Assembly: GCA_003154025.1 (NCBI GenBank)
Contig: PMCE01000369.1
Span: 11,637 to 46,365 of the forward strand
Reading direction: 5' to 3'
DNA: 34,729 nt
DNA from: Syntrophaceae bacterium
GTDB taxonomy: Bacteria > Desulfobacterota > SM23-61
Shown here piece after piece: positions 4,294-33,143 of this stretch. The notes under the pieces were generated by a model. That model did no database searches and was not told where the DNA came from. It saw nothing but the letters and a program-made list of their open reading frames with translations. The translations under genes and the position numbers were made by a program. Numbering within the stretch: the first letter of the stretch is position 1; each line of letters opens with the position of its first letter.

Positions 4294-4632
4294 ATGAAAA
4301 TCTGGAGAATCGTCATCATTTCGACTTTGATCGTCTGCTTTGCCGCTCTGGGAACGGCCTTCGCCCAGGCCAAGAAGGTCGGGGGAGGGGATATCAAGTT
4401 CACTCCCAAGGGAGCGGACCCGGTTACGTTCAGCCATGAAAACCACGTGACCACGAACAAGCTGAAATGCACGGATTGCCACACCAAGATCTTTCCCATG
4501 AAGAAGCAGGATCTGAAAATAACCAAAGAATCCCATGGGCAGGACAAGCATTGCGCGGTGTGCCATAACGGGACCAAGGCATTCAGCCAGACGAAGGATT
4601 CTGAGTGCGTCAAGTGCCATAAGAAAGCGTAA
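4294..4632 (+). CDS. Periplasmic triheme c7-type cytochrome
   Basis: The 112-residue product starts with a clear Sec signal peptide (MKIWR, then a hydrophobic run to about residue 22, cleavage probable after AFAQA). It has three c-heme motifs: CTDCH (59-63), CAVCH (87-91) and CVKCH (105-109). His48, His51 and His81 are candidate distal ligands, as expected for bis-His c3/c7 cytochromes. The segments GGDIKFTPKGADPVTFSHENH and IFPMKK are typical of the c(7)-type triheme domain family, which is found as single proteins or strung in larger nanowire-like cytochromes. The ATG at 4294 has GGGAGGAAG about 9 nt upstream; the TTG two codons earlier is less likely. It is followed by a strong terminator, so it is probably monocistronic. 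Likely role: periplasmic electron transfer. Confidence 0.93.
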   Translation: MKIWRIVIISTLIVCFAALGTAFAQAKKVGGGDIKFTPKGADPVTFSHENHVTTNKLKCTDCHTKIFPMKKQDLKITKESHGQDKHCAVCHNGTKAFSQTKDSECVKCHKKA

Positions 4633-4916: not shown

Positions 4917-6323
4917 ATGAGGAACCCGGTGGCCGAGGAAAAAGAAAAAGGATTTCTTTCCGCTCTGTGGGATTCCCTATCCTCCGTCCGCCTGGCGATC
5001 CCCCTTTTAATCATCCTGGCCATGGCCTCGATCTTCGGCACGGTGATCCCCCAGAATGGCACGCCCGAGGAATATCTCCGCATCTATAAAATTTCCACTT
5101 ACAAGATCTTGCGAATCCTTGGCTTCCTGGACACGTACCATGCGGGGTGGTTCATCCTCCTTCTGGGTCTCCTGAGCCTGAATCTGGTGGTTTGTTCCTT
5201 AAGAAGATGGCCATCCGTCCGAAGGGTTTTTTCCCGGGCTGAAATCAAACCCGAAGAAGGGCAATGGAAGGCCGTACCTTCGGGAAGGAAGATCTTATTC
5301 CGGGGAGCGGCCAAGGCCTCTATTTCCCAGGTTCAACAGGGGCTCGCGCGGGTCTTCGCCCAACCCAGGGTTTTGGAGGGGGATGGAATCCGGTATCTAT
5401 TCGCCGAAAAGGGGAAATTCTCCCGGCTGGGCTTTTATTTTATCCATTTCAGCATCCTGGTCATCCTGTTAGGAGCCGTCATCGGGTCCTTCTATGGGTT
5501 TCGGGGGTACATAAACATCGTAGAAGGAGAATCGGTAGATCGGGTATTCCTAAGGAGTGGGCAGCAGGACCAGCCCCTGGGTTTCAAGGTCCGGCTGGAT
5601 CAATTCAGGGTCTCCTTTTACCCTACGGGTGCGCCCCAGGAGTTCAAGAGTAAGGTAACCATTCTGGAGGGAGACCGGGAGGTCCTGACCGAACCCATTC
5701 TGGTCAATCATCCCCTGACTTACAAGGGGATCTCCTTCTACCAGTCCAGTTATGGAGTCTCTTCGGTGGAGAAAGCCGTCCTCGAGGGAGTGGAACGGGC
5801 CTCGCGGAGGGGATTTACCCTCACCGTGCAGCCGGGAATGAAGGTTGAAATCCCAGGGACCCCCTATGCTCTGCTGCTGAATCGGTTCCTTCCAGACCTG
5901 CAGGGGATGGGCCCTGCTTTTCAAGCCATCCTTTTCGAAGGTACCCGGCCGGTGGAGAATCTGGTGATCCTCCAAGGCTCCTCCGATTTTGTCTCCCAGC
6001 GTCCGGGGCGCTTCCAGTTTCGAATACGGGAAATCGACCCCAGATACTACTCCGGCCTGCAGGTAACCCAAGACCCGGGGGTATGGGTAGTTTGGCTGGG
6101 CTGCTTTCTCATGATGGCAGGATTCTACATGGCCTTCTTCATGTCCCACCGCCGAGTCTGGGTTAGACTAACAGATAAGAAGGGCGAAACGCTGGTGGAG
6201 GTTGCCGGCTCCAGCCATCGGAACCGGTACGAGTTTGAGAAAGAGCTGGAGAGGATCGGGCAGTCGTTGCAAGGCCAGCTTTCCCAGGGACAGAAGAAAT
6301 CCTCCAAGGGAGACTCCGCATGA
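4917..6323 (+). CDS. resB: Cytochrome c biogenesis protein ResB (System II)
   Basis: ResB (CcsB-like) works with CcsA in the System II heme-delivery and lyase complex that attaches heme to apocytochromes outside the inner membrane. The 468-residue protein has the ResB layout. Membrane segments lie at about residues 25-45 (LAIPLLIILAMASIFGTVIPQ), 75-95 (WFILLLGLLSLNLVVCSLRR) and 170-190 (RLGFYFIHFSILVILLGAVIG). A large periplasmic domain follows, with NHPLTYKGISFYQSSYG, and a last segment lies near residues 395-410. The conserved pattern around GFYFIHFS supplies the heme-side His. The ATG at 4917 is the first in frame; no strong Shine-Dalgarno is evident. ccsA overlaps by 4 nt, so the two are translationally coupled. 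Confidence 0.95.
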   Translation: MRNPVAEEKEKGFLSALWDSLSSVRLAIPLLIILAMASIFGTVIPQNGTPEEYLRIYKISTYKILRILGFLDTYHAGWFILLLGLLSLNLVVCSLRRWPSVRRVFSRAEIKPEEGQWKAVPSGRKILFRGAAKASISQVQQGLARVFAQPRVLEGDGIRYLFAEKGKFSRLGFYFIHFSILVILLGAVIGSFYGFRGYINIVEGESVDRVFLRSGQQDQPLGFKVRLDQFRVSFYPTGAPQEFKSKVTILEGDREVLTEPILVNHPLTYKGISFYQSSYGVSSVEKAVLEGVERASRRGFTLTVQPGMKVEIPGTPYALLLNRFLPDLQGMGPAFQAILFEGTRPVENLVILQGSSDFVSQRPGRFQFRIREIDPRYYSGLQVTQDPGVWVVWLGCFLMMAGFYMAFFMSHRRVWVRLTDKKGETLVEVAGSSHRNRYEFEKELERIGQSLQGQLSQGQKKSSKGDSA

Positions 6324-7165
6324 TCAGTACCAAAATGATCGGCTCCGTAACCTTTTTATACCTTTTTTGCACGATCCTCTACTTTATTTACCTCGCTTTT
6401 CGGTCCGAGCGGATGGGAAAATTGGCCACCTGGGTCAGCTGGGTCAGCCTGGCGATCCAGACGGCGGCCATCCTGCTGCGATGGGTGGAGTCTTACCAGC
6501 TGGGTTTCGGTCATGCCCCCCTGTCCAACATGTATGAATCGCTGGTCTTCTTCTCCTGGTGCATCGCCCTTCTATACCTTCTCTGGGAATGGAGGCTGAA
6601 GTCCAGGGTAATCGGAGCATTTGCCTTCCCCTTTGCTTTTATCTTCAACGCCTACGCTTCGCTGGCCCCCGGGGTTTCGGCGAAAATCGACCCCCTGATC
6701 CCGGCCCTGCAGAGCAACTGGCTCCATGCCCATGTGATGGCCTGCTTTTTCAGCTATGCCTCCTTTGCCCTCTCCTGCGCGGTCAGCATCATTTACCTAA
6801 TCAAGTTGAAGAGGAAGGAAAAAGGGGAAAAAGAGGGCGCTCTGACTTCCCTGTTTCCTTCCCTGGATTCCCTGGATGAATTGGCTTACAAGACGATCGT
6901 GGTCGGCTTTCCCCTCCTCACCATCGGGATTGTCACCGGAGCGGCTTGGGCCAATTATGCCTGGGGCTCTTACTGGAGCTGGGACCCGAAGGAGACCTGG
7001 TCGCTGATCACCTGGTTTGTGTACGCCATCTTTCTCCATGCCCGGGTCACCCGGGATTGGCGGGGAAGGCGCACCGCCATCCTGTCCATCCTGGGCTTCG
7101 TCGCGGTCGTTTTCACCTACTTCGGGGTCAACTACCTGCTTTCCGGCCTTCACAGCTATGCGTGA
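6320..7165 (+). CDS. ccsA: Cytochrome c biogenesis protein CcsA/ResC (heme handling)
   Basis: This polytopic membrane protein of 281 residues is the heme-binding partner of ResB. The tryptophan-rich WWD-type motif is present near residues 215-230 (AWGSYWSWDPKETWSLITW), preceded by conserved NMYESLVFFSW and LHAHVMACFFSYASFA and followed by FTYFGVNYLLSGLHSYA. The length and about eight membrane segments are normal. The start overlaps the resB stop as ATGA and has AAGGGAG seven nt upstream. With the cytochrome gene upstream, this forms a small cytochrome c production neighbourhood. I use the name ccsA; some annotators call the same family CcsB or ResC. Confidence 0.96.
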   Translation: MISTKMIGSVTFLYLFCTILYFIYLAFRSERMGKLATWVSWVSLAIQTAAILLRWVESYQLGFGHAPLSNMYESLVFFSWCIALLYLLWEWRLKSRVIGAFAFPFAFIFNAYASLAPGVSAKIDPLIPALQSNWLHAHVMACFFSYASFALSCAVSIIYLIKLKRKEKGEKEGALTSLFPSLDSLDELAYKTIVVGFPLLTIGIVTGAAWANYAWGSYWSWDPKETWSLITWFVYAIFLHARVTRDWRGRRTAILSILGFVAVVFTYFGVNYLLSGLHSYA

Positions 7166-7361: not shown

Positions 7362-7736
7362 ATGGAAAAGAAGATCAAAATTAAAGCCGGAAACGTGGAA
7401 GCCGATGCCGTTCTGAACGATTCGCCGACGGCCAAGAAAATCTGGGAAGCCCTACCCATCGAAGCGAGGGGAAACACTTGGGGCGATGAGATCTACTTCG
7501 CCATCCCGGTGAAATCTTCCCTGGAAAAAGACGCCCAGGAGCTGGTGGAAGTAGGGGACCTTGGGTACTGGCCCACCGGGAGCGCCTTCTGCATCTTCTT
7601 CGGACCCACCCCGGCGAGCCGGGGAAACGAAGTCCGCCCGGCGAGCGCCGTGAATGTGATCGGCAGGGTAGCCGGAGATGTCAAGGCTTTCAAGAAAGTT
7701 GCCGACGGGGCCAAGGTGAGGATCGAGAAGGCATAA
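7362..7736 (+). CDS. Cyclophilin-fold family protein (TM1367-like, formerly DUF369)
   Basis: The 124-residue protein looks like the small cyclophilin-like family: KIKIKAGNVEADAVLNDSPTA at the start, WGDEIYFAIP around residues 45-54, VEVGDLGYWPTGSAFCIFFGPTP around 67-90, and NVIGRVAGD near 100. Members share the cyclophilin barrel but generally lack the prolyl-isomerase active site, and their function is not known. There is no signal peptide. GAGGTG precedes the ATG at a suitable distance and lies just beyond the palindromic element. The gene is flanked on both sides by repeats and is probably a single-gene unit. Confidence 0.8.
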   Translation: MEKKIKIKAGNVEADAVLNDSPTAKKIWEALPIEARGNTWGDEIYFAIPVKSSLEKDAQELVEVGDLGYWPTGSAFCIFFGPTPASRGNEVRPASAVNVIGRVAGDVKAFKKVADGAKVRIEKA

Positions 7737-8219: not shown

Positions 8220-8840
8220 ATGGAGAGAATGAAGGGGGCGGTCAAGAGGACCTTTTTCGCCGGGCTGGTGGTGGTCGTCCCCATCCTGATCACCGCCTTC
8301 GTCCTCTACTGGCTCTTTAATCTCCTCGACGGGTTCCTCGGCCCCCTCATCCCTCAAATCAGCGGAAGAGAAATCCCCGGCCTGGGAATTCTCACCGAGA
8401 TCGTGATCATCTTCCTGGCGGGGATCGTGGCCACCAATGTCCTCGGCTCCCGGATCTTGAAATGGTTCCAGGAGCTGCTGACGCGGGCTCCGGTGGTCAA
8501 GAACATTTACCCCACGATCAAACAGCTGGTGGAAGCTTTTCATCCCTCCAAACGTTCCTCCTTCAAGAAGGTAGTTTTGGTTGAGTACCCCAAAATCGGT
8601 ACGTTTACCGTAGGTTTTTTGACCAGCGAGGTTTCCCTGAAGGGGGCCGGTCAGAACCAGCTTCTCTATTCGGTCTACCTCCCCACCAATAACCTGTATC
8701 TGGGAATGGTGGCCCTGTTCAGGCAGGAGGATGTGATCGTAACGAATTTCACCATCGAAGAGGGCCTGAAAATCGTTCTTTCGGGAGGGACGACCTTCCC
8801 CCCGACGATTCAGAAACAGAACCCAACCCCAATGCCATGA
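8220..8840 (+). CDS. DUF502 family inner-membrane protein
   Basis: The 206-residue protein matches the DUF502 pattern. It has a basic start (MERMKGAVKRTFFAG), two membrane segments at about residues 13-35 (LVVVVPILITAFVLYWLFNLL) and 55-75 (GLGILTEIVIIFLAGIVATNVLG), and a soluble part with VVKNIYPTIKQLVEAF, FKKVVLVEYP, and VYLPTNNLYLGMVALF. Function is not established. A second ATG three codons in (8229) is possible; the upstream ribosome-binding site is weak for both. The stop overlaps the next start as ATGA at 8837, so the gene is coupled to the amrB-amrA fusion if that start is used. Confidence 0.85.
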   Translation: MERMKGAVKRTFFAGLVVVVPILITAFVLYWLFNLLDGFLGPLIPQISGREIPGLGILTEIVIIFLAGIVATNVLGSRILKWFQELLTRAPVVKNIYPTIKQLVEAFHPSKRSSFKKVVLVEYPKIGTFTVGFLTSEVSLKGAGQNQLLYSVYLPTNNLYLGMVALFRQEDVIVTNFTIEEGLKIVLSGGTTFPPTIQKQNPTPMP

Positions 8841-10375
8841 GAAGATTTCCGGGGATCCGGTTGGATTGGTTTTCTCCTTTCATCCTGGCGACGGCTTGGA
8901 GCCTGGTCCTTTTAACCTCTGCGAACTGTCAGGAATGGGGCAGAGCCAAAGAGGAAGGGAAAGCTATGAGAGAAGAAGTAAGAAAACCCGCGGTGGCCGG
9001 TTCCTTTTACCCGGGGGACGCGAAGACTCTGTCCCGGCAGGTTCGGGAATACCTTTCCCTGGCGGCCAAGGAAGAGGTGGCGGGGGAAATCTTCGGGCTG
9101 GTTTCGCCCCACGCCGGTTACATGTATTCCGGTCTGGTCGCCGCCCATGCCTTCAAAATCGTGGAAGGGATGAAGTTCGACGCCGTGGTTATCGTGGCCC
9201 CGAGTCACCGGGCTCCGTTTCAGGGCGCCTCGGTCTATGACCGGGGAGGCTATGAGACCCCCCTGGGGGTTTTGCCCGTGGATAAGGAGATTTGCCAGAA
9301 GCTCAAGAATGAAAGCAACCTCATCCAATCGCTCCCCCAGGCTCACTCCCAGGAACACTCCCTCGAAGTTCAGCTCCCCTTCCTGCAGGAAGTACTGGGA
9401 AAGTTCAATCTCGTGCCCATCGTGATCGGAAGTCAGGACTACCATTCCTGTGAGGTCGTGGGGAAAGCCATCGCCCGCGCGGTGAAGGGGAAGAAGGTTC
9501 TGCTGGTGGCCAGCACCGACCTTTCCCATTACCACCCGTACGACCGGGCGGTGCAGTTGGATAAGATCATCCTGGATGATATTCAGGCTTTCGATGCCCA
9601 AAAACTGAGTCGGGATCTGGATGGGGGAAAAGGGGAAGCCTGCGGCGGAGGGCCAGTCATCGCGGTCATGGTGGCCGCCGGAGAATTGGGAGCCACCCGG
9701 GCTAAGGTCTTGAAATACCAAAACTCCGGCGACGTCACCGGAGACCGGTCCGCGGTGGTTGGATACGGGGCGGCGGTCTTCTACCGGAATTCAGGATCGG
9801 CAAAGAAAGAACCGGATGGCAGGAAAGCCGGGATCAGCCTGGGGTTAACGGAGGAAGAGAAAAAGATTCTCCGGCAGATCGCCCAGGCGGCGATTGAGAG
9901 ACGCCTGAAAGGCGAAAAAGCCACCCCGATCGACATACCCGGCGGGCACTTGAAGGAAAACCGAGGGGCCTTCGTTTCTCTCCACCGACGCGGCCAGCTC
10001 AGGGGGTGCATCGGCATCATTCAGCCGACCCGTCCCCTCTACCAGGTGGCGGAGGAGATGGCCGCGGCCGCAGCCTTTGAAGACACGCGTTTTGCGCCTC
10101 TTTCGGCTCAGGAACTCAAGGACCTCGACCTGGAGATCTCGGTCCTGACCCCTTTGCAGAGGGTCCAGGACATCCAGGAGATTGAAGTGGGCAAACATGG
10201 GCTGTACATCAAGAAGGGTTTCTATGCGGGTCTCCTGCTCCCCCAGGTGGCCACGGAGTACAAATGGGACCGGGTGACCTTCCTGGAGGAGACATGCCGG
10301 AAGGCGGGCCTGCCAAAGAACGCATGGAAGGAGAAGGGGACCGAGATCTACCTGTTCTCGGCGGATATTTTTTAG
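8837..10375 (+). CDS. AmmeMemoRadiSam system fusion protein AmrB-AmrA (MEMO1 + AMMECR1)
   Basis: The 512-residue protein joins two domains usually encoded as separate genes. Residues about 50-320 are a MEMO1/AmrB domain: KPAVAGSFYPG, SPHAGYMYSG, APSHRAPFQG, EHSLEVQLPFL, STDLSHYHPYD and CGGGP hold the His, Asp and Cys residues of the MEMO metal site. Residues about 337-512 are an AMMECR1/AmrA domain, with RGAFVSLHRRGQLRGCIG and EDTRFAPL. The first 43 residues include a hydrophobic stretch (residues 12-29) resembling a signal peptide. Two starts compete: ATG 8837 overlaps DUF502 but has no clear Shine-Dalgarno, while ATG 8966, which removes the hydrophobic stretch, has AAGGGA six nt upstream. 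The family's biochemical reaction is uncertain. Neighbours amrS and fmdB support the system assignment. Confidence 0.92.
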   Translation: MRRFPGIRLDWFSPFILATAWSLVLLTSANCQEWGRAKEEGKAMREEVRKPAVAGSFYPGDAKTLSRQVREYLSLAAKEEVAGEIFGLVSPHAGYMYSGLVAAHAFKIVEGMKFDAVVIVAPSHRAPFQGASVYDRGGYETPLGVLPVDKEICQKLKNESNLIQSLPQAHSQEHSLEVQLPFLQEVLGKFNLVPIVIGSQDYHSCEVVGKAIARAVKGKKVLLVASTDLSHYHPYDRAVQLDKIILDDIQAFDAQKLSRDLDGGKGEACGGGPVIAVMVAAGELGATRAKVLKYQNSGDVTGDRSAVVGYGAAVFYRNSGSAKKEPDGRKAGISLGLTEEEKKILRQIAQAAIERRLKGEKATPIDIPGGHLKENRGAFVSLHRRGQLRGCIGIIQPTRPLYQVAEEMAAAAAFEDTRFAPLSAQELKDLDLEISVLTPLQRVQDIQEIEVGKHGLYIKKGFYAGLLLPQVATEYKWDRVTFLEETCRKAGLPKNAWKEKGTEIYLFSADIF

Positions 10376-10449
10376 AGTGAAAGTGTAAGTGAAAGTGAAA
10401 GGGTAGAAAATTCTTTTTCCATTCACTTGCACTTGCACTTTCACTGTCG
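10376..10449. repeat. Imperfect long hairpin of AGTGAAAGTG units
   Basis: The left arm (AGTGAAAGTGTAAGTGAAAGTG) pairs imperfectly with the right arm (CACTTGCACTTGCACTTTCACT) over about 24 bp, around a short A/T-rich loop. It lies between the amrB-amrA fusion and the second fmdB gene. It could slow or attenuate transcription or protect an mRNA end; no U-tract terminator is present. Confidence 0.65.
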
Positions 10450-10464
10450 TTGGAGGTATTGGCC

Positions 10465-10803
10465 GTGCCCATCTATGAGTATGAATGCCAGGATTGCCAG
10501 GCCGTGAGCGGCTTTCTGGTGATGAAAAAAGAGGATGAAAAGAAAATTACCTGTCTGAGATGCGGGGGCAAGAAAATGTCCAAGGTGGTTTCTCAGGTTG
10601 CCTACCATCGTTCCGAAGCAGACCGCCTCGCCGAGTTCGATCCCCAGAAACCGACGGGAGAAGAATTTTACAAAGACTCCAGGAATATCGGTTTGTGGGC
10701 CAAGAAGCGCGCCAAGGAATTGGGAGCGGACCTGGGGCCCCAATTCGATGAGATTGTGGAAAACGCCCGCACGGGCAAGATCCTGAAGAAATACGGCTTA
10801 TGA
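10465..10803 (+). CDS. FmdB-family zinc-ribbon protein, extended form
   Basis: The 112-residue protein begins MPIYEYECQDCQAVSGFLV, the FmdB start, with CQDC and CLRC forming one zinc ribbon. Unlike the first FmdB protein, it has a 65-residue helical, charged extension (EADRLAEFDPQKPTGEEF, WAKKRAKELGADLG) that could bind a partner. I chose GTG 10465 because GGAGG lies 8 nt before it and it yields the conserved MPIYEY. A TTG at 10450 is in frame but overlaps the Shine-Dalgarno. The stop overlaps the amrS start by 4 nt (ATGA), strong evidence of a shared function or stoichiometry with AmrS. Function is unknown. Confidence 0.88.
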   Translation: MPIYEYECQDCQAVSGFLVMKKEDEKKITCLRCGGKKMSKVVSQVAYHRSEADRLAEFDPQKPTGEEFYKDSRNIGLWAKKRAKELGADLGPQFDEIVENARTGKILKKYGL

Positions 10804-11951
10804 TTGATGAAGTAGGGAGAAAAGCTCCGACCTTCTCCCGGCGGCGTTTTCTGAAAGCTGGTTTCTGCGCTGCTCTCTGCTGGTCTGTTTTGGGCTATCC
10901 TTCCGTCGCTCCTGCCCAGAAAGGAAAGAAAGGCCTCCTCGGACCCAAGGTTTCCCGCCATTATCAACCCCTGAAAGACGGAAAGATTCAGTGCCAACTC
11001 TGTCCCCGGGAGTGCATCGTGACTCAGGGCGGACGGGGTTTTTGCGGAGTGCGGGAGAACCGGGAAGGAAAGTATTACAGCCTGGTGTACGGCAACCCCT
11101 GTGCGATGCATGTAGACCCTGTGGAAAAGAAGCCCTTCTACCATCTCCTTCCGGCTTCCACCTCCTTCTCCATCGCCACCGCCGGGTGCAACTTCCGCTG
11201 CAAGTTCTGCCAAAACTGGGAGATTTCCCAGGTCGCTCCCGATGACACCTTCAATTACGACCTTCCTCCGGACAGAGTGGTGGACTCGGCCAAAAAGGCC
11301 GGGTCCCGGTCCATCGCCTATACGTATGTGGAGCCGACCATTTTCTACGAGTACATGCTGGACACCGCTAAGCTGGCCAGGAAAGAAGGAATTCTCAACG
11401 TGTACCACTCCAACGGGTTCATCAATCCTGGACCGCTGAAGGAGCTCTGCAAATTCCTGGATGGGGCGAATGTGGACCTGAAAGGTTTCACCGAGGATTT
11501 CTACGGAGGAATGTCCCAGGGACGACTGGCTCCAGTCCTGGGGACCCTGAAAACGCTGAAGACCGCAGGGGTCCATGTGGAAATCACCAACTTGGTCATC
11601 CCTACGCAAAACGACGACCCGGAAACGGTCCGCAAAATGTGCACTTGGATCAAAGACGAACTGGGGCCGGACACTCCCCTCCATTTTTCCCGTTTCTACC
11701 CCCTCTACAAACTTCGCAACCTCCCGCCCACTCCGGTTCCCACCCTGGAGAGAAACCGCAAGATCGCTACGGAAGCAGGGCTGGAGTATGCGTACATCGG
11801 AAACGTTCCGGGACATGAGGGAGAACGGACCTACTGTCCCGGGTGCAAGAAGCTCCTGATCTTCCGTCAGGGGTACTCCCTCGGGGAAATCAACCTGAAC
11901 AAGGGAAAGTGCAAGTTCTGCGGCAAGCCCATCTTCGGAATCTGGGCATAA
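10800..11951 (+). CDS. amrS: AmmeMemoRadiSam system radical SAM enzyme with Tat-like signal
   Basis: The 383-residue protein is the radical SAM member of the AmmeMemoRadiSam system. The cluster motif C130-N-F-R-C134-K-F-C137 is intact, and AYTYVEPTIFYEYM and VYHSNGFINPGPL are typical of this PflA-like family. It also has N-terminal cysteines (CQLCPREC, FCGV) and a C-terminal zinc-ribbon-like CPGC...CKFC. Residues 13-19 read S-R-R-R-F-L-K, matching the twin-arginine consensus, followed by a hydrophobic segment (20-33) and a plausible cleavage site at APAQ (37-40). No good alternative start exists downstream before the conserved domain, so the segment seems to be translated. Export of a SAM-dependent enzyme would be unusual. 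Product and substrate are unknown. It is coupled to the upstream fmdB by a 4-nt overlap. Confidence 0.93.
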   Translation: MIDEVGRKAPTFSRRRFLKAGFCAALCWSVLGYPSVAPAQKGKKGLLGPKVSRHYQPLKDGKIQCQLCPRECIVTQGGRGFCGVRENREGKYYSLVYGNPCAMHVDPVEKKPFYHLLPASTSFSIATAGCNFRCKFCQNWEISQVAPDDTFNYDLPPDRVVDSAKKAGSRSIAYTYVEPTIFYEYMLDTAKLARKEGILNVYHSNGFINPGPLKELCKFLDGANVDLKGFTEDFYGGMSQGRLAPVLGTLKTLKTAGVHVEITNLVIPTQNDDPETVRKMCTWIKDELGPDTPLHFSRFYPLYKLRNLPPTPVPTLERNRKIATEAGLEYAYIGNVPGHEGERTYCPGCKKLLIFRQGYSLGEINLNKGKCKFCGKPIFGIWA

Positions 11952-13902: not shown

Positions 13903-15414
13903 TCAATCCTTAAAATCGGCAGGGTTGTAGTCGGGCAGCATGGAGCCGTGCTCGAGAAGATTGCGATGGAGTTCGAAACACTTATCCAAGTTATGGCGGA
14001 TATGGCCGATGCGGGAATTTTCCAGATACCGGTAGAGGTAATCCCGGTAGGCGGGGTGAGCGCAGTTTTCAATCAGTGCTTTGGCCCGCTGCATGGGACC
14101 CAGACCGCGCAGGTCGGCCAGCCCCTGGTCGGTGACGATGATGGCTACTGAATGTTCCGTATTATCCACATGCGGACACATGGGAACGATGGCGGAGATT
14201 TTCCCCCCTTTGGTAACCGAAGGGCACATGAGGATGGAGAGGTAAGCGTTCCTGGAGAAATCGGCGCTTCCTCCGATTCCATTGATCACATCCGTTCCGT
14301 AGATGTGGGAAGAATTCTCGTTTCCGTAAATATCCACCTCCAGGGCGGTGTTCATGGCGATCACGCAGAGCCGTCGGATGATGCCGGGGTGGTTCGAGAG
14401 CTCCTGGGGACGCAGAACGATCCGGGGAGCGAAGAAGTCCATGTTCGCATAAATCTGCTGCAGCTTTTCCGGCGTAACGGCAAGGCTGGTCGAGCTGGCC
14501 GCCAGGAGCTTCCCTTCTTGCATGAGGTCGACCTGCGAGTCCTGGAAGACTTCGGTGAACATATTGAACGGAGGGATGTCCGGGCTTTTTCCGAACGCAG
14601 CCATGACTCCGTTGGTAATGTTTCCGACCCCGGCCTGCAAGGGAAGAAATTCCGGGGGGATCCGGCCGGCTCCCCGCTCTTCAGCCAAAAAGCGGACCAG
14701 ATGCTCGGCAATTTTCAGGCTTGCTTTGCTGGGGGGGCTGAAAGGAAGAACGTGGTCGGGTTCATCGTTTTCGACAATCCCGATGACCTTATGCGGGTCC
14801 ACCTGCGCATAGGGCCAGCCGATTTTGCTGATGGGGTCGTGAATCTGGATCGGATTCCGGTGAGGAGGAGGGGGGACGATCATGATGTCAGCCATCTCCC
14901 GGAGCCGCATAGAGTGATGTCGGTTGATTTCGATGATCACCTTCTCCGCGCATTTCAAATAAGTCGGAGTCGCCCCGATGGAGGTGGTCAGGAAAACCCG
15001 GCCATCGGGAGTGATTTCCGTGGCCTCAGCAATCGTCGTATTGATTTTTCCGAAAAAGCCGAAGCTGACGGTCTGCGGGACATGGGACAGGTGCATGTCC
15101 ACATATTCCACTTTTTGCTGGTTGATCATCTGTCTCAACTTGGCGCTGCTCTGGTAAGGAGCCCGCCAGGCGACGGCTCCGGCCTGAGCCAGAGCCTGAT
15201 CGATACTTTCCCCGCAGGAAGCCCCGGTGAGAATGCGGAGCTTGAAGGTTTGGCCTTTGGTATTCAGATCGGCAGCCCTTGCGGCCAGGGCTCTGGGCAC
15301 GGCCTTCGCAGCCCCGGCCGGGGTGAACCCGCTGAAGGCTACGGTGTCGCCATTGTTTATATGCGCAACCGCTTCCTCGGCAGTAATTCTTGGATAGTGA
15401 TTATGGACAGACAT
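13903..15414 (-). CDS. Acetyl-CoA hydrolase/CoA-transferase family protein
   Basis: The 503-residue protein belongs to the Ach1/Cat1/AarC family, which moves CoA between acetate, succinate or other acids through a glutamyl-CoA intermediate. Evidence: GDTVAFSGFTPAGAAKAVP near the start, GVGNITNGVMAAFG in the middle, and VDIYGNENSSHIYG, which contains the catalytic Glu. GIGGSADFSRNAYLS and VTDQGLADLRGLGPMQRA are also present. The likely job is succinyl-CoA:acetate (or propionate) CoA-transfer or acetyl-CoA hydrolysis in fermentation or syntrophic oxidation; the substrate cannot be read from sequence. I chose ATG 15414, with AAAGAGG 5 nt upstream. A start at 15528 would add 38 residues lacking family resemblance. 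It is probably monocistronic, driven by the promoter near 15600. Confidence 0.93.
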   Translation of the reverse strand: MSVHNHYPRITAEEAVAHINNGDTVAFSGFTPAGAAKAVPRALAARAADLNTKGQTFKLRILTGASCGESIDQALAQAGAVAWRAPYQSSAKLRQMINQQKVEYVDMHLSHVPQTVSFGFFGKINTTIAEATEITPDGRVFLTTSIGATPTYLKCAEKVIIEINRHHSMRLREMADIMIVPPPPHRNPIQIHDPISKIGWPYAQVDPHKVIGIVENDEPDHVLPFSPPSKASLKIAEHLVRFLAEERGAGRIPPEFLPLQAGVGNITNGVMAAFGKSPDIPPFNMFTEVFQDSQVDLMQEGKLLAASSTSLAVTPEKLQQIYANMDFFAPRIVLRPQELSNHPGIIRRLCVIAMNTALEVDIYGNENSSHIYGTDVINGIGGSADFSRNAYLSILMCPSVTKGGKISAIVPMCPHVDNTEHSVAIIVTDQGLADLRGLGPMQRAKALIENCAHPAYRDYLYRYLENSRIGHIRHNLDKCFELHRNLLEHGSMLPDYNPADFKD

Positions 15415-15590
15415 ACGTACCTCTTTCGTTCCCAGAAAACGACCATCGACGGATCTATGGTGGTTGGGATTTTTTTGTGGTGGAGGAATTTGTAGAAGAC
15501 AGGTCTTACATTTCTTGCGGTAAACCAATTCCTTTAGGTCTTTGATTTAATGAAAGAAAAAAATAGTCTCCGGTGCGACGACTCATTTAT

Positions 15591-15897: not shown

Positions 15898-15984
15898 GCC
15901 GAAGTGGCGGAATTGGTAGACGCGCTAGGTTCAGGGTCTAGTGTGGGTTCCCACGTAGGGGTTCGAGTCCCCTCTTCGGCACCA
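15898..15984 (+). tRNA. tRNA-Leu (anticodon CAG)
   Basis: The acceptor stem GCCGAAG (15898-15904) pairs with CTTCGGC (15974-15980), followed by discriminator A and an encoded CCA (15982-15984). The D-arm has GGAATTGGTAGAC. The anticodon arm CTAGG-TTCAGGG-TCTAG gives anticodon CAG. A long variable arm (TGTGGGTTCCCACGTA region) marks a class II tRNA, and the T-arm is GGGG-TTCGAGT-CCCC. It is 87 nt long and decodes CUG. Confidence 0.98.
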
Positions 15985-18657: not shown

Positions 18658-20934
18658 TCATTTTTCAGAGGATGACCAGATAAATACGCTCATAATATTT
18701 GAAAAGTCATCCGTCCAGACCCTTGCCTCCGGATCAAACTGCAATGGGGTCCATCTATTATCCTTGCCTATTTCCCCCAAATCTGCAACCCGATGGACCA
18801 TCACGACCCAAATGGAACCGGTTTTCTTAATTTTTTCCTGAGCATTATCGATTTTTCTATCTTCCCGGACGAAGCACGCCAGGTTGGAATCTCCAGCCAG
18901 GGTTCCGAGAATGGGTTGAAGATTAAGATATCGATTGGAAATATGGAAGGCCAAAATTCCATCCTTGGCGAGTTTTTTAAGATAAAGGTTGATGGCCTCC
19001 CGCGTCAGAAGATGCACGGGAATGCCATCGGAGCTGAAGGCATCTATGATGATTAAATCATACTGAAAATCCGATGCCTTGGTCAGCGATAGCCTGCCGT
19101 CGCCCAAAACCACATCCACCTTGGCGGGGCAGTCAGTTAAAAAAGTGAAATATCGAGGATTACGGGCGATCTTTTCGACGGCGGGGTCCAATTCGTAAAA
19201 TGTCCAATGATGGTTCGGTTCCGCATACCCGGCTATGGACCCTGTTCCCAACCCGATCACCGCGATTTGCTTTCGGCTTTTTGTGTAGGAAAAGGCTTCA
19301 AAAATTTGTCCAAGCGGCCCGGTGCGATGATAATAAGTCAAAGGTTCGCGGCAATGACTGGGGTCCAGATTCTGTGCACCATGGAGAGTGGTCCCGTGGA
19401 AAAGAAGATTAAGGCCGGCCTTAGGGTCATTCTCGACTTTAAACACTCCAAAAAAGCTGCGCTCGGTATGAAGCACTTGATTTTGCCCGTTACCCCATAG
19501 AGAAAAAGCCAATATAAATCCTCCCACCCCTAATCCGAACCGCAAAGGGCGGCGGCAGAAGGAATAAAGGACGACTCCCAAGGAGGAAAAAGTAATGGTG
19601 ATCAAAACTATCCCGAGTTTGGGAGACCCTTCAAGAAACTGCCGGTATAATTCATGCCCAAACGTGGATACAGAAAAGGTTGAGCCTCCCAAGATCGCTG
19701 TAAAGATCAAGGGAAGAATCAGGTCCCTCCGGTGCTCCCGAAGGTTTTCTTTATCCGATTCGAGGCGAGGCCTGAGAAAGCAGGAAAAGATGATAACGAG
19801 CGGATACTCAGCCAACGAATTAAAGACCAAAGGGGCCGCCAGGGCGTTGAATATCCCGCCCAGAACCCCTCCGAAGGACAACCAGAGATAAAACTCGGTC
19901 AGGTGCAAAGTCGAGGGCCGGCTGTTGGCCAATTCGCCATGGCAAACCATGGAGGTCACGAAGAAACTGAATAAGTGAAGCGGTATGAAAAACCATTGCA
20001 TCGCCTTAGAGCCCCCAAATAAAGACATGAGCACGATCAATGGGAGTAAAATGAAGGGCTGCAACCAAACCATAGCTTTATGGTTCACAACCGCTTTGGG
20101 GGCAAATACCAGGATAAAAGTGATCAGATAAAGGGCCAGAGGCAGGATCCAAAGGAGGGGAACCGCGGCGATGTCGGTGGTTATATAATTCGTTACCCCC
20201 AGTAACAAGCTTGAAGGGGCAAAACTCAAGAGCACCCATCGAATTCTCTGGCCAATGGTGAGGGTATCGTGAGAGACGGATGTGAAAGCAGGGCCTTGGG
20301 ATTCAGCTGCGGTCCCTAAATTGCGATTTTGGGAGATTAAGCCTGAAGATCTTAGGAGGATCATCGCACAAATTGAAATCAGTCCGGCCAGGACAACATA
20401 ACCAAGCGACCAACCCTTAGCCTGCTGTGCTAAGGTTAGAATTGGTTCCGCCAGAATCGGAAAACCGAACAGGGCGATAATGCTACCAAGATTGCTAATA
20501 CTATAAAGAAAATATGGATCTTTTGACCAAGGGTGGCGGGTAAATGCAAACCACCTCTGCAGAAGAGGAGCGGTAGTGGAAAGAATGAAGAAAGGCAACC
20601 CAACCGAAATCAACAGCAGCATGGAAACCCCGCGAATGGGGTTGCTTTCCATGGATTGGGTCCAGCCTTCTGGAATAGCGATGGGAAGAGTGATAAGGGT
20701 CAACCATAGTATGCTCAGATGGACAACGACCTGCTGCCGCATTCCGAACCTTTTGGTTATCAAATGGGCATAAAGGTAACCTAACAGCAAAATCGTCTGG
20801 TAGAAGACTAGGCATACGCTCCAAACCGACGGCGATCCGCCCAAAAGGGGAAGAATCATTTTGGCGTACATCGGTTCGATCCAAAAAAGCAGGAGGGCGC
20901 TGATAAATAAGGAGAGTGAAAATAAAAAAAGCAT
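18658..20934 (-). CDS. Membrane protein with C-terminal spermidine-synthase-like domain
   Basis: The 758-residue protein has a long membrane part (about residues 1-480, roughly a dozen segments, starting FLFSLSLFISALLLFWIEPMYAKMILPLLGG). It ends in a Rossmann domain of the spermidine-synthase/methyltransferase type: IGLGTGSIAGYA near 560, FYELDPAVEKIARNPRYF near 580, GDGRLSLTK near 611 and IIIDAFSSDGIPVHLLT near 633. In true spermidine synthase the equivalent acidic loop binds putrescine. Here the Ser-Ser-Asp loop differs, as in other membrane-fused spermidine-synthase-like proteins whose substrate is unknown. Decarboxylated SAM or SAM as cofactor is an inference. AAGGA lies 8 nt before the ATG at 20934. 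The J-domain gene follows on the same strand but has its own candidate promoter. Confidence 0.87.
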   Translation of the reverse strand: MLFLFSLSLFISALLLFWIEPMYAKMILPLLGGSPSVWSVCLVFYQTILLLGYLYAHLITKRFGMRQQVVVHLSILWLTLITLPIAIPEGWTQSMESNPIRGVSMLLLISVGLPFFILSTTAPLLQRWFAFTRHPWSKDPYFLYSISNLGSIIALFGFPILAEPILTLAQQAKGWSLGYVVLAGLISICAMILLRSSGLISQNRNLGTAAESQGPAFTSVSHDTLTIGQRIRWVLLSFAPSSLLLGVTNYITTDIAAVPLLWILPLALYLITFILVFAPKAVVNHKAMVWLQPFILLPLIVLMSLFGGSKAMQWFFIPLHLFSFFVTSMVCHGELANSRPSTLHLTEFYLWLSFGGVLGGIFNALAAPLVFNSLAEYPLVIIFSCFLRPRLESDKENLREHRRDLILPLIFTAILGGSTFSVSTFGHELYRQFLEGSPKLGIVLITITFSSLGVVLYSFCRRPLRFGLGVGGFILAFSLWGNGQNQVLHTERSFFGVFKVENDPKAGLNLLFHGTTLHGAQNLDPSHCREPLTYYHRTGPLGQIFEAFSYTKSRKQIAVIGLGTGSIAGYAEPNHHWTFYELDPAVEKIARNPRYFTFLTDCPAKVDVVLGDGRLSLTKASDFQYDLIIIDAFSSDGIPVHLLTREAINLYLKKLAKDGILAFHISNRYLNLQPILGTLAGDSNLACFVREDRKIDNAQEKIKKTGSIWVVMVHRVADLGEIGKDNRWTPLQFDPEARVWTDDFSNIMSVFIWSSSEK

Positions 20935-23005: not shown

Positions 23006-24016
23006 CTATGGGTCTTGTTTAGAAACGGAGGTCCCCGAGTGGAGGCGAGGGGCGGCATCCGGGGAAGAAAGCGCCTCTCTGGCCTTCTTCATCTTCTGGT
23101 GGGCCTGGACGTAAAACCCGGGTTTCATCTCGACGGCTTTCTCGAAGGATTCGACGGCTTCTTTCGTCCTTCCTCCGGCCATGTACAGGCAGCCCAGATT
23201 GTAGTAGGCTGTAGCTTCGTCGCCGGCTTTCTTGAAAGCTTCGAGGGCTTCCGGGTACCTTTCCAATTTGAACAGCCCGATGGCCATATTGTTGTAAACC
23301 TTGGAATTGGAAGCTTGGAGTTTGACCGCGCCCGTAAAGGCGGCCACGGCCTTATCGTTTTCTCCCTTTAACAAAAGAGAAACGCCAAGATTATTGTATA
23401 GGAGTCCAAATTCGGGCTGGACGGAGATGGCCTTTTGATACTGGGATATGGCCACATCATACTTTCCCTGGCGGTCGTACAAAACCCCTAGATAGTTGAA
23501 AGCCTGCCAGAGAGAGGGGTTCAGCTGAAGAGCCTTCAGAAAATTCTTTTCGGCTTCCGGAAATTCACCCGATTGGAAGTAACTCCGGCCTAGGCCTTCA
23601 TAAGCGGGAGCATAAGTAGGGTCGGCCAGGATAATCTCCTGAAATTCCTTCTTTGCCTCGTCTTTCATTCCCTTCTCAAGGTAGAGGTGGCCCATCTTGA
23701 ATCGAACCCGCAGATTGCGGGGATCCAGTTCAAGGGCTTTATGGTACTGGATGAAAGCCAGGTCCGAATTCCCCCTACTAAAATGCTGATCTCCCTGCTT
23801 TTCGTAGCCTTCCGCGTTCAACTCGGGGATTTTTTGGGAAATTTTCTTTTCGGCGGCCATTTCCGCCTTCTGCCGCTCCATAATCTTGCGGTATTCGCTG
23901 TCCTGGTTGAGGCTCTGCGTGCGGTTGGGAGAGGAAGAGGCACATCCCAGGGAACCGATCATCACCAGAATCGCCAGGCAGGCAAAAATCGCTGTGCGTC
24001 CTGCAGATTTCATCAT
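23006..24016 (-). CDS. TPR-repeat lipoprotein at the end of the Tad operon
   Basis: The 336-residue protein has a signal peptide ending in a lipobox-like IGSLG-C (Cys25), so it is probably lipid-anchored. About five to six tetratricopeptide repeats follow, e.g. EGYEKQGDQHFSRGNSDLAF, VRFKMGHLYLEKGMKDEAKK, AYEGLGRSYFQSGEFPEAEK, AFNYLGVLYDRQGKYDVAI, LYNNLGVSLLLKGENDKAV and YNNMAIGLFKLERYPEALE. TadD-type TPR lipoproteins are standard in Tad loci and help secretin or pilus assembly. GAGGGGGG lies before the ATG pair at 24016/24013. It overlaps the upstream TPR-LytR_C gene by 4 nt. It is the last gene of the operon. Confidence 0.9.
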   Translation of the reverse strand: MMKSAGRTAIFACLAILVMIGSLGCASSSPNRTQSLNQDSEYRKIMERQKAEMAAEKKISQKIPELNAEGYEKQGDQHFSRGNSDLAFIQYHKALELDPRNLRVRFKMGHLYLEKGMKDEAKKEFQEIILADPTYAPAYEGLGRSYFQSGEFPEAEKNFLKALQLNPSLWQAFNYLGVLYDRQGKYDVAISQYQKAISVQPEFGLLYNNLGVSLLLKGENDKAVAAFTGAVKLQASNSKVYNNMAIGLFKLERYPEALEAFKKAGDEATAYYNLGCLYMAGGRTKEAVESFEKAVEMKPGFYVQAHQKMKKAREALSSPDAAPRLHSGTSVSKQDP

Positions 24017-25386
24017 GATTTCCCCCCTCTACCGAGCCCCGGACCGGGAAGAATGTCTTTGCCGATGACAACTTTGACATTGATATTGGGACGGTCGAAC
24101 TTTTTCTGTTCCTCCAATCTTTGCAGCCCGGGAAGTTGGTCAGCTACCTGAGCGGCAAGTTCCTGGTAGCCATTCTGATAATAAATCCTGGTCTGGCGGT
24201 GCTTGAAATGATCGGCATTGGTGATTCGCCTGACGGGCAGCCCTTTGTCCTCCAGCTCTCGAGAGACCCTACGCGCCATTCCATTGGCCCCATTTCCGTT
24301 GGAGACTTCAATCCCCGCCTTTTTCATCGACAGGGGAGCGGGCTTTTCCAAGCCATGAGCAAGAGAAGGCGGGGGCGCAGGTTCTGTCCTCAAGGCGGGG
24401 GACGGAATGGGTTTCAATTCTACCGCCTTCACTCCGGAATCATCCTGTGCTTGAGCCACCCGAGTGTCTTCTACCGCGGAGAGCAGAACCGGTTCTAATT
24501 CCGGGGAGACAGGCCTGAGCCCACTTTGTTCATGATGGTAAGGTTTCGATATATCCTGCGCTACCTGATGATCCGAAATTGGGGAATTCTCTTCGGATTT
24601 CGGTTCAGGGACGGCTTCTTCTTTTTTCCGGTCAGAGGGTTGGAAGATCTTGGCCAGAGCATCGATTGCTTGCATAGCCATCCGGGCATGAATGAAGGAT
24701 GGGTCCAGGCTCAAGGCCTGGGAGTAATGGAACTGGGCAATCCGGTACAAACCCTGGCGATGATAAAACTGGGCGATGTTGAAATGGGCCTTTGAATCCT
24801 CACCAGCCAGTTGGAACTCGGTCAGAGCCAGATCCATATGGCCCATCACGGCGTATGCCAGCCCCAGATTGTTATGAAATTTTCCTTCCCGCTCATTTAA
24901 GGCAACAGCTTTCCGGAGAACGGGAATGGCCTCATCCGTTTTGCCCAGGAGGAGGTAGGAATATCCCAGGTTATTCAGAACATAATCCAGGTCGGGATTC
25001 AATCCCAGGGCCCTTTTATAGGATTCAGCGGCCCGGGCGTAATCTTTCAGGTGATCGTAAGATACCCCCATTCCGTTGTGGGCCTCGACATGTCGTGGGT
25101 CGATAAGGATTACTTTTTGAAACTCTTCGATGGCCTTCGCGTGCTCTCCCCTCTCCTGGTAATAACCCGCCAGCAGATAATGAGAGTCGGGATTTCCCGG
25201 GCGGGGGCGGACTTGGGACGCGAATTGGGAAATCAGGCCCTGCTCGCTACTCTTAATCTCCGGAGGGTCCGAAAAAACTCCCCGGTTCATGAAGTTCACC
25301 TGGGTCGAGCAACTGGTTACGGAGAATAGAGAAAAACCTCCAACCAGGCTGAGAGCAACCATTTTTTTAACTCTTTTTTTCATCAT
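24013..25386 (-). CDS. TPR lipoprotein with C-terminal LytR_C domain (Tad locus, TadD-like)
   Basis: The 457-residue product has a signal peptide with lipobox V-T-S-C (Cys26) and TPR repeats at about residues 65-240 (YLLAGYYQERGEHAKAIEEFQ, AHNGMGVSYDHLKDYARAAE, VLNNLGYSYLLLGKTDEAIP, HNNLGLAYAVMGHMDLALTE). A Pro/Ser/Glu-rich linker follows, then a LytR_C-type domain at about 350-445 (AGIEVSNGNGANGMARRVSR, TRIYYQNGYQELAAQVADQLP, NVKVVIGKD). TPR plus LytR_C proteins commonly accompany Tad genes; a pilotin or scaffold role at the outer membrane or periplasm is inferred. tadC lies 14 nt upstream and the second TPR gene overlaps by 4 nt. Confidence 0.9.
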   Translation of the reverse strand: MMKKRVKKMVALSLVGGFSLFSVTSCSTQVNFMNRGVFSDPPEIKSSEQGLISQFASQVRPRPGNPDSHYLLAGYYQERGEHAKAIEEFQKVILIDPRHVEAHNGMGVSYDHLKDYARAAESYKRALGLNPDLDYVLNNLGYSYLLLGKTDEAIPVLRKAVALNEREGKFHNNLGLAYAVMGHMDLALTEFQLAGEDSKAHFNIAQFYHRQGLYRIAQFHYSQALSLDPSFIHARMAMQAIDALAKIFQPSDRKKEEAVPEPKSEENSPISDHQVAQDISKPYHHEQSGLRPVSPELEPVLLSAVEDTRVAQAQDDSGVKAVELKPIPSPALRTEPAPPPSLAHGLEKPAPLSMKKAGIEVSNGNGANGMARRVSRELEDKGLPVRRITNADHFKHRQTRIYYQNGYQELAAQVADQLPGLQRLEEQKKFDRPNINVKVVIGKDILPGPGLGRGGKS

Positions 25387-25400
25387 TCAACCCCTCGTGT

Positions 25401-26363
25401 TCATTGTCCGCCCAGGGAGGGCATCAGGGTTCTGAATATGCGGATGACCGCCGGTCCCAGAATGGCTACGAAGAGGGAAGGAAAGATGAAAAAGATCAGA
25501 GGGAAGAGAAGCTTCACCGGCAGTTTTGCCGCCACTTCTTCCGCCCTCTGGAACCGCTTCACCCTCATGGCGTCCGAGTGTACCCGTAGCGCCTGGGAAA
25601 TGCTGGTCCCGAACCTCTCCGTCTGGATCAGCAGGGAGGAGAGGTTGTTCACATCTTCCAGATCCGTGCGAATGGCCAGGTCCCGGAAAGCATCCCGCCG
25701 GGTTTTCCCCGCCCTCAATTCCAGGCTCATCAGATTGAATTCATCACTCAAGGTCTTATTGCTCAATTTCATCTCATCCCCCACCCGGTTGATGGCCGCA
25801 TCCAGGCCTACGCCGGCCTCCGCGCAAACCACCATCAGATCCAGGGCATCGGGAAGGCCCAGCAGAATCTTTTCCTTCCGCCTGTCAATCTTTATCCGCA
25901 GCCACAAATTGGGCAGATAAAAGCCGGCCATGGCAGACAAGATGCAAAGACCGATGAAATGGAGGGGCTGCAGGGCCGGCAGGAATGAGAATTTAACCAC
26001 TGCGAAGAGCAGGGCAAAGAGGATAGCCAAAAAGGCCTTGCTTCCGAAAAAAATTAGAGAGGCATTCTCTTTCCGGATTCCCGCCTTCAAGAACCTCTTC
26101 CGGGTGTAGGAAGGGTCGCCTTCTTGAGCCGGTTTGGTCAGGCGTCCCAGGTTTCCCAGGGCCTTAAAGATCTTTCCCTTTATGGACGGAAATAAACCCG
26201 GTTTTTCCGGTTCTGTTTCCTGAGTCTCTTCCCCGGCCTCCCGGACTCTTTGGACGAGGTCGCGGCGCTCTTTGTGATGGCCGGCATAAAGATAAATACC
26301 CAGGATAAAAAGAAAAACACCGGCAAAAGCTAAGATGGCAATGAGCAAAAAGGTGTCGATCAT
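25401..26363 (-). CDS. tadC: Tad pilus inner-membrane platform protein TadC
   Basis: The 320-residue protein is the second of the paired GspF/T2SSF-type platform proteins. It has an N-terminal membrane segment (LLIAILAFAGVFLFILGIYLY), two more near residues 110-150, the GspF core (LPDALDLMVVCAEAGVGLDAAINRVGDE, LSSLLIQTERFGTSISQALRVHSD) and a C-terminal segment (LPVKLLFPLIFFIFPSLFVAILG). ATG 26363 has AGGAGG 4 nt upstream. The frame is open to 26705, but that extra part overlaps tadB out of frame and is not coding. It lies 8 nt after tadB. With TadB it anchors the TadA ATPase and moves pilin. Confidence 0.94.
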   Translation of the reverse strand: MIDTFLLIAILAFAGVFLFILGIYLYAGHHKERRDLVQRVREAGEETQETEPEKPGLFPSIKGKIFKALGNLGRLTKPAQEGDPSYTRKRFLKAGIRKENASLIFFGSKAFLAILFALLFAVVKFSFLPALQPLHFIGLCILSAMAGFYLPNLWLRIKIDRRKEKILLGLPDALDLMVVCAEAGVGLDAAINRVGDEMKLSNKTLSDEFNLMSLELRAGKTRRDAFRDLAIRTDLEDVNNLSSLLIQTERFGTSISQALRVHSDAMRVKRFQRAEEVAAKLPVKLLFPLIFFIFPSLFVAILGPAVIRIFRTLMPSLGGQ

Positions 26364-26371
26364 CTTTCCTC

Positions 26372-27349: not shown

Positions 27350-27372
27350 TTCTCTCAAATAGTGAAATTGTA

Positions 27373-27393
27373 GGGCGATTCGGCGAATCGTCC
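27373..27393. repeat. Short hairpin between tadA and tadB
   Basis: GGGCGATTC (27373-27381) faces GAATCGTCC (27385-27393) around a GGC loop, with one mismatch. A second GC-rich palindrome, GGGCGCCCGCGCC, follows at about 27400-27412. It might tune expression within the operon or simply be a repeat. Confidence 0.55.
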
Positions 27394-27433
27394 GCATGAG
27401 GGCGCCCGCGCCGGGTCGCCCCTGCGATCTTGC

Positions 27434-28819: not shown

Positions 28820-28863
28820 CTTGCCATCTCCCTTTCTCCTGATCGGCCGTTTCGCTCTTGTCA

Positions 28864-28889
28864 TTCCCCTCCCGCCGGGGGGAGGGGAA
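28864..28889. repeat. Perfect 10-bp hairpin between cpaE and tadA
   Basis: TTCCCCTCCC (28864-28873) pairs with GGGAGGGGAA (28880-28889). On the minus-strand transcript no U-tract follows, so it is more likely a processing or attenuation structure than a terminator. Confidence 0.6.
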
Positions 28890-28917
28890 ATTTTATTTGT
28901 TAGGCGATCATCTTTCT

Positions 28918-30093: not shown

Positions 30094-30128
30094 TTCTCAC
30101 CTCTTCCATTTCCAAACGGATGTGCTTC

Positions 30129-31418: not shown

Positions 31419-31483
31419 CCTCAACCCTCCATATTCAGTATCTGCTCAGGCATAGTCTACCTCCCCCCCAAGGGTGAATTCAG

Positions 31484-32035: not shown

Positions 32036-32131
32036 AATTCTTACTCCCCAAAATTCAATTCCCAAAACTTTGGCCGGGCCATTCCTTTGGACGGCGTCGC
32101 GGCTGCTGCGCATGGCCTTTTCATCCTATCC

Positions 32132-32617: not shown

Positions 32618-32723
32618 GATTCTGGCCCTCCCGGATAAGCTGTCAAATAACCTGAAAAGCTGGCCCATTCAGGATCGCTTTATTCCGGATTTCCACATTT
32701 TCCAAGTCATTCACTCCTCCGCG

Positions 32724-33002: not shown

Positions 33003-33039
33003 TCTTTCCTCCATTTGGTTAGAAGATCTTTCCAATGAT

Positions 33040-33130: not shown

Positions 33131-33143
33131 TAAAAAACGGGCA

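Follow-up and report, generated by a model that had tools for sequence, protein, structure and literature searches.

The stretch of DNA that we analysed (34,729 nucleotides, hereafter the window; Syntrophaceae bacterium, GenBank assembly GCA_003154025.1, contig PMCE01000369.1, positions 11,637 to 46,365) encodes an AmmeMemoRadiSam system that, judging from its sequences, probably belongs to an envelope-targeted branch of the family: the radical S-adenosylmethionine (SAM) enzyme AmrS would be exported by the twin-arginine translocation (Tat) pathway and its partner, a Memo-AMMECR1 fusion, by the general secretory (Sec) pathway, both acting outside the cytoplasm. AmrS (10800..11951, plus strand, 383 aa) scores 377.4 bits against TIGR04337 (cut-off 220), and the fusion, which combines AmmeMemoRadiSam proteins B and A (8837..10375, plus strand, 512 aa), scores over the cut-offs of both TIGR04336 (297.6 bits) and TIGR04335 (186.3 bits). 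To our knowledge no reaction has been described for this family. Radical SAM enzymes are regarded as cytoplasmic because SAM, the reductant and cluster assembly are found there. The predicted export of AmrS and its partner is well supported by sequence; that radical SAM chemistry also works outside the cytoplasm is an inference.

AmrS begins with a predicted Tat-type signal peptide (residues 1-39; 10800..10916, plus strand). Residues 13-19 read SRRRFLK (10836-10856) and are followed by 21 uncharged residues (A20-Q40), which end in the AxA site A37-P-A39 with predicted cleavage before Q40, and then by KGKKG. The open reading frames (ORFs), this motif, the hydrophobic segment, APAQ and an intact cluster motif CNFRCKFC had all been described in the original prediction and were found as it stated. 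PMC10924467 describes the h-regions of Tat signals as less hydrophobic than those of Sec signals and states that a positively charged c-region or early mature part helps to keep them out of Sec. The h-region and early positive charge of the window's AmrS fit both features. With Tat-exported iron-sulfur proteins in general it shares the twin-Arg motif, moderate h-region, AxA site and positive early mature region (signal features after PMC10924467).

The signal is conserved among the best 120 matches from 8000 scored candidates. A Tat-like motif is present in 114 of these homologues, as twin Arg in 83 (78 SRR, 3 TRR, 1 CRR, 1 PRR) and as Lys-Arg in 31 (30 TKR, 1 NKR); of the remaining six, one was called from a Met inside the signal and five look incomplete because their starts lie after the conserved C65-C72. 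The original prediction had proposed such an alignment, and named close homologues without the segment as what would speak against it; the outcome is in its favour. An alignment of 115 full-length proteins, one of them the window's AmrS, shows R15 and L18 unchanged throughout and F17, A39 and Q40 with at least 90% conservation. Our motif rule (RR or KR, x, one of FGAVML, one of LITMVF, then at least 13 uncharged residues, with RK also tried) detects the window's AmrS as RR and 104 of the 115 as RR or KR, and allowing RK adds none.

We also scanned genomes, keeping the best 80 of at least 575 confirmed loci, so that the counts describe near relatives and not the whole family. These loci come from metagenome-assembled genomes (MAGs) of the Desulfobacterota type, Omnitrophota, Zixibacteria, Cloacimonadota, Aminicenantes, KSB1 and others. 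Further AmrS copies were searched in 50 of the 80 genomes, and a chosen part, 55 stretches, was fetched. Cytosolic AmrS paralogues often co-occur with signal-bearing AmrS: the extra copies are mostly of this kind; they lack the extension, and their sequence opens with MKEALLYEKL or a similar string near aligned residue 49. Further Tat-type copies among the fetched stretches are L083, L084, L086, L087, L090, L092, L110 and L126. Tandem AmrS pairs occur at L084, L087 and L090, mostly with Tat-like starts on both members, the first L090 copy having no signal. The script that assigned signal classes used an over-strict hydrophobicity threshold, and rows were reassigned by hand before the tree was built: 24 rows with a visible motif went to the Tat class, three to the cytosolic class and four from Tat to Sec-type, with single-row moves of L043 to Tat, L074 to Sec-type and L093 to cytosolic; the contig-edge rows L002, L011, L046 and L062 were left out. 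With these classes the rule detects 49 of the 64 Tat-class loci (41 RR, 5 KR, 3 RK), 3 of the 22 Sec-class loci and none of the 49 AmrS copies labelled cytosolic; its background among other clustered ORFs is 28/526 (10 RR, 8 KR, 10 RK). The tree was built from 136 catalytic cores over 335 columns, with the N-terminal extension excluded, in a short search without bootstrap. In it, 65 Tat-class and 22 Sec-class rows share one side of a branch (Shimodaira-Hasegawa-like approximate likelihood ratio test, SH-aLRT, 90) with two odd rows. One of these is L093, a frameshifted row whose hydrophobic start lies in a different frame; the other is a copy in L090 behind an integrase-like frame. Since a tree from the core only groups the signal-bearing AmrS, the extension marks an old branch and not a local accident.

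In the Sec-type AmrS a strongly hydrophobic segment replaces the twin-Arg signal, and the type of signal agrees with the export machinery of the genome. TatC, sought in a chosen subset of 50 of the 80 locus genomes, is present in 29 of the 31 with a twin-Arg-like AmrS versus none of the 19 with a Sec-type AmrS (Fisher p 7e-12). For Omnitrophota only, a count that includes the untitled L063 on the basis of its tree position, the corresponding numbers are 3/5 and 0/17 (p 0.0065). Assembly incompleteness as the reason for missing TatC was rejected, since in the same 21 of 21 TatC-negative genomes SecY was found and TatA/B was not; TatA/B was found in three TatC-positive Omnitrophota. In all 22 Sec-type segments the positive charge is greater ahead of the hydrophobic stretch than behind it; under the positive-inside rule this predicts an N-terminus inside and a catalytic domain outside in 22/22. 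That an export signal seems to have been kept while its type was exchanged is the strongest sequence argument that the outside location matters. At L081 (G001:C298), a cytosolic AmrS copy is immediately preceded by a second TatC gene, and about 110 bases separate the two domain matches.

The partner mostly bears a signal of its own. The Memo places were fetched in part, as 58 chosen stretches, and two of the 94 Memo hits were not counted, namely L150 (a repeat of L093) and the second half of the broken gene at L001, a Syntrophaceae MAG locus. Of the 51 fused Memo-AMMECR1 copies that the fetched loci contain, 47 begin with a hydrophobic segment preceded by an in-frame start codon. Two of the remaining four, L148 and L149, have no signal and belong to genomes that also hold the signal-bearing copies L024 and L033; the other two, L050 and L093, look hydrophobic at the start, but the rule found no start codon for them. 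L029 has a signal on its fused copy, and its genome also holds a split second copy without one (L183). In 17 of the 47 signal-bearing fusions there is no start codon near the Memo domain, and the signal must therefore be translated. Of 41 standalone Memo copies, six have a signal: four fragments of genes that are split, broken or cut by a contig end (L001, L027, L060, L071) and two divergent Memo-like proteins (L011, L191). L027 encodes Memo and AMMECR1 separately, and both proteins start with a hydrophobic segment. The divergent proteins of L011 and L191 have a lipoprotein-like start (FATCSQSGGEG in L191), and the distant Memo proteins of L060 and L071 look lipoprotein-like as well. Per genome, a Memo or AMMECR1 with a signal was found in 46/50 (27/31 with twin-Arg-type and 19/19 with Sec-type AmrS), the four without being those of L050 and L093, which have the hydrophobic look and no start by the rule, and of L007 and L019. 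Memo or AMMECR1 lies within 4 kb of AmrS in 24/64 Tat-class, 18/22 Sec-class and 2/49 cytosolic-labelled cases; the last two are L031, whose locus holds a second, Tat-type copy, and the frameshifted L093. Several Tat-class genomes hold the signal-bearing fusion away from AmrS (L136-L143, L145, L146).

These observations can be combined into the mechanism that we consider most likely. AmrS would fold and take up its cluster in the cytoplasm, cross the membrane via Tat and be cleaved after APA. The Memo-AMMECR1 fusion would take the Sec route, while an internal start codon, ATG44, possibly gives rise to a second form that stays in the cytoplasm. AmrS and the exported fusion would then come together at the outside of the cytoplasmic membrane. 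There AmrS would probably still use SAM, receive an electron from a redox carrier in the membrane or beyond it, and modify an envelope substrate together with the iron-binding Memo domain. How SAM would reach the outside is the weak step of this scheme; the alternatives are that SAM is loaded before export or that the SAM chemistry was lost.

The neighbours of the signal-bearing AmrS point to a redox supply across the membrane, though they cluster by lineage and the counts ignore kinship. We grouped the neighbours of 86 signal-bearing AmrS in BLAST clusters and named families from one or two representatives each. A DsbD_2 (CcdA-like) membrane protein adjoins 18 of 22 Sec-class and none of 64 Tat-class AmrS; within Omnitrophota it is found at 18 of 20 Sec-type loci (L063 placed by tree) and at none of five twin-Arg-type loci. 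It lies downstream of AmrS, mostly just after Memo-AMMECR1 (e.g., L058:4859-5506, and 17 other loci). A NapH-like membrane polyferredoxin adjoins 9/64 and DUF362 proteins 8/64 Tat-class AmrS. A multi-span membrane protein with a spermidine synthase domain occurs in several phyla at 22 of the 86 loci, 17/64 in the Tat class and 5/22 in the Sec class (e.g., L042:2775-4880, minus strand, and 21 other loci). At 11/64 Tat-class loci (12 with the left-out L011) a further radical SAM protein is encoded near AmrS; it is about 25% identical to AmrS and begins with a Tat-like sequence of its own, of the TRRDFI type (L003:1568-2614, L005:11285-12328, L004, L006-L011, L013, L015, L019).

Read at its fullest, the envelope-targeted system would be a genuine extracytoplasmic radical SAM system, with SAM cleaved on the outer side, dedicated membrane partners, and a switch to Sec together with DsbD_2 where Tat was lost; we consider this a real possibility that falls a little short of an even chance. 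In this reading DsbD_2, a conduit for thiol electrons, would have been gained alongside the Sec signal, as though to hold the AmrS cysteines reduced for cluster assembly outside, and the membrane-embedded spermidine-synthase-like proteins might handle SAM-type compounds.

Several findings weigh against an exported system. The original prediction called the start of AmrS a textbook Tat signal, which the motif rule and the AxA site bear out and the Tat hidden Markov model TIGR01409 does not, giving the window's AmrS 14.5 bits, under the cut-off of 16.7. That model, which serves to recognise Tat signals and does not define them, is also absent from the 25 families that the 115 aligned proteins match most often (E 0.01), so at most 17 of these proteins match it. 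The motif is KR and not RR in 31 of the 120 homologues and RK, a poor Tat motif, in five Omnitrophota, and the rule misses 15 of the 64 Tat-class loci. Two RK-motif AmrS (L042, L043) come from genomes without TatC or TatA/B, and the agreement between signal type and TatC amounts to two to three independent switches, with which a kinship-corrected test cannot reach 0.05. On the partner's side, three Desulfobacca-type genomes have a hydrophobic start on AMMECR1 (L152, L154, L156) and none on Memo (L151, L153, L155). In G004 (L007) and G009 (L019), both with a Tat-type AmrS, the Memo and AMMECR1 copies have no signal, one Memo hit of G009 not having been fetched. The window's own fusion may start at ATG44 and remain inside, and the ratio of nonsynonymous to synonymous substitution rates (dN/dS) of its extension against L001, 0.88 over 42 codons, is uninformative. 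Adjacency is weak in the Tat class, and remains so where 2.5 kb or more of sequence flanks AmrS on each side (13/43, versus 8/9 in the Sec class); contig ends account only partly for it. A Sec route would carry AmrS unfolded, and we know of no [4Fe-4S] assembly outside the cytoplasm. Finally, the membrane redox neighbours of the relatives (DsbD_2, NapH-like) are not in this window, whose sole envelope redox neighbours, a cytochrome c7 and ResB/CcsA proteins, are linked to AmrS by proximity only.

The alternative that survives best grants the export and gives up the chemistry: AmrS would be an exported iron-sulfur or metal-handling protein, or would perform a single turnover with SAM loaded beforehand. 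We know of no source of SAM on the outside, which favours this explanation, as do eight cysteines that are invariant in AmrS beyond the cluster motif and might provide additional metal sites. The iron-binding fold of Memo favours it too: H92, H124 and C269 of the window's fusion align with H49, H81 and C244, the iron ligands of human MEMO1 (PMC11081632). We nevertheless consider it somewhat unlikely. The cluster motif C130-C134-C137 is intact (11187..11210, plus strand), and its CX3CX2C cysteines are invariant in 87/87 signal-bearing and 37/37 main-clade cytosolic AmrS, the ten long-branch cytosolic rows having been kept apart in this column comparison. Together with these cysteines, the probable SAM residues E178, P179, D226 and K228 are 99-100% conserved in the 87 signal-bearing copies, which would not be expected had SAM cleavage been lost.

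A less likely alternative is dual localisation, in which AmrS is exported and Memo-AMMECR1 is made mainly from ATG44 and stays in the cytoplasm, so that the two share no compartment in this organism. The fusion consists of a hydrophobic Sec-type N-terminal segment (residues 1-43; 8837..8965), a Memo domain (8981..9781) and an AMMECR1 domain (9866..10372), all on the plus strand. The alternative start at 8966 is preceded by GAGGAAGGGAAAGCT, a strong ribosome-binding site, and none is visible at ATG1. Many homologues of the fusion are called from the equivalent Met (about 469 aa), which makes the hydrophobic N-terminus optional, as the original prediction held, and two relatives with a Tat-type AmrS have no signal on any Memo or AMMECR1 that we examined. 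On the other hand, the hydrophobic start is retained in close relatives called at 512 aa, and 17 of the 47 signal-bearing fusions elsewhere lack an internal start nearby. It is possible that the gene yields two protein forms, the shorter of which, from ATG44, would be cytoplasmic. We also considered the fusion as a lipoprotein and rejected this for the window's group because the Cys is not conserved: SANC has no typical -1 residue, and by eye some close relatives have G, Y, S, F or L in place of the Cys.

The original prediction left open whether the segment serves export or tethers the protein to the membrane. If the segment remained uncleaved and anchored AmrS at the cytoplasmic side of the membrane, nothing would be exported, and AmrS would stay where SAM and low-potential reductants are known to be. 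The retention of all SAM and cluster residues would then be readily understood, and some relatives (L060, L066, L075) do have long segments without an obvious cleavage site, as judged by eye. This inward tether is nevertheless quite improbable. Export is favoured over it because Tat signals place the domain that follows them outside and the 22 Sec-type replacements predict the same orientation; A39 and Q40 show the conservation to be expected of a cleavage site, and the partner mostly bears its own signal. That the Tat-like look of AmrS is due to chance or to a wrongly placed gene start is hardly credible: despite the subthreshold TIGR01409 score and the background of the rule, a chance motif is rejected on its conservation in the homologues, the alignment and the rule counts, the agreement with TatC speaks against it too, the ATG at 10800 is the sole ATG upstream of the conserved C65 (a TTG stands at codon 31), and dN/dS against L001 is 0.36 over AmrS codons 1-41 (core 0.06).

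The envelope-targeted form is best described as a variant of the known AmmeMemoRadiSam system, new as far as the openly licensed literature shows. It shares with the cytosolic AmmeMemoRadiSam (TIGR04335/TIGR04336/TIGR04337) the three domains over cut-offs, the cluster, the SAM site and the extra cysteines, and differs in a 48-residue AmrS extension with a signal and in the signal on Memo-AMMECR1. The signal-bearing branch is separate and has conserved residues of its own (e.g., W283, A323, W140 and K135), and Memo or AMMECR1 lies within 4 kb in 42/86 signal-bearing versus 2/49 cytosolic-labelled rows. AmrS has a radical SAM barrel of the type found in pyruvate formate-lyase activating enzyme (PDB 3cb8), to which it adds the N-terminal signal and extra cysteines at the N- and C-terminal ends. 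In contrast to that enzyme, there is no glycyl radical enzyme among the window proteins run against Pfam, and the glycyl radical enzyme activase models among the matches listed all score AmrS far under their cut-offs (best 47.1 versus 250.2 bits). Human MEMO1, unlike the fusion, is cytosolic and has neither an AMMECR1 domain nor a hydrophobic segment in front.

We found no description of an exported, periplasmic or extracytoplasmic radical SAM enzyme in our searches of the openly licensed literature. Work by Burroughs and colleagues reportedly extends the contexts of Memo and may mention secreted forms. The passages that mention AmmeMemoRadiSam concern a gene beside a prophage and amrS, amrB and amrA in a figure legend, and a passage of PMC7159879 mentions Memo-Ammecr1 systems, citing Burroughs et al. 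2019. A branch that extends across many phyla with changing yet persistent export signals suggests that the chemistry, or at least the enzyme, is wanted outside. For Memo and AMMECR1, which have human relatives, this would narrow their job in these bacteria to something that can be reached from the envelope.

In the window, a DUF502 membrane protein (8220..8840, plus strand, PF04367) overlaps the start of the fusion with its stop (ATGA), and a gene for an FmdB-type zinc-ribbon protein (10465..10803, plus strand; TIGR02605 43 bits, cut-off 31.3) sits between the fusion and AmrS, its stop overlapping the AmrS ATG at 10800 (ATGA). The FmdB-type gene has the same position in L001, the second of the two loci examined. 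The gene order of the window, compared in translated sequence, is also found in this MAG, where AmrS is 83% identical and the Memo-AMMECR1 fusion is interrupted by a stop. Farther upstream lie genes for a triheme c7-type cytochrome (4294..4632; PF14522 55.7 bits, from 4288, TIGR04257 67.8 bits versus a cut-off of 40), a ResB-like cytochrome c assembly protein (4917..6323; PF05140, E 2.5e-107), a CcsA-like cytochrome c assembly protein (6320..7165; PF01578, E 9.2e-59) and a cyclophilin-like protein (7362-7736), all on the plus strand. The c7-type cytochrome has a Sec-like signal ending in GTAFAQ; it is a possible extracytoplasmic electron carrier and might serve AmrS.

The remainder of the window holds a Tad-type pilus or secretion cluster (23006-34601, minus strand) with TPR proteins, two T2SSF, T2SSE, a ParA-like ATPase, TadE/TadG-like proteins and a secretin. 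Two frames, 18658-20934 on the minus strand (758 aa) and 14152-15495 on the plus strand (447 aa), have no Pfam match at E 0.001; the latter may not be a gene, as an opposite-strand frame of 541 aa overlaps it. A tRNA-Leu (cag) lies at 15898-15984.

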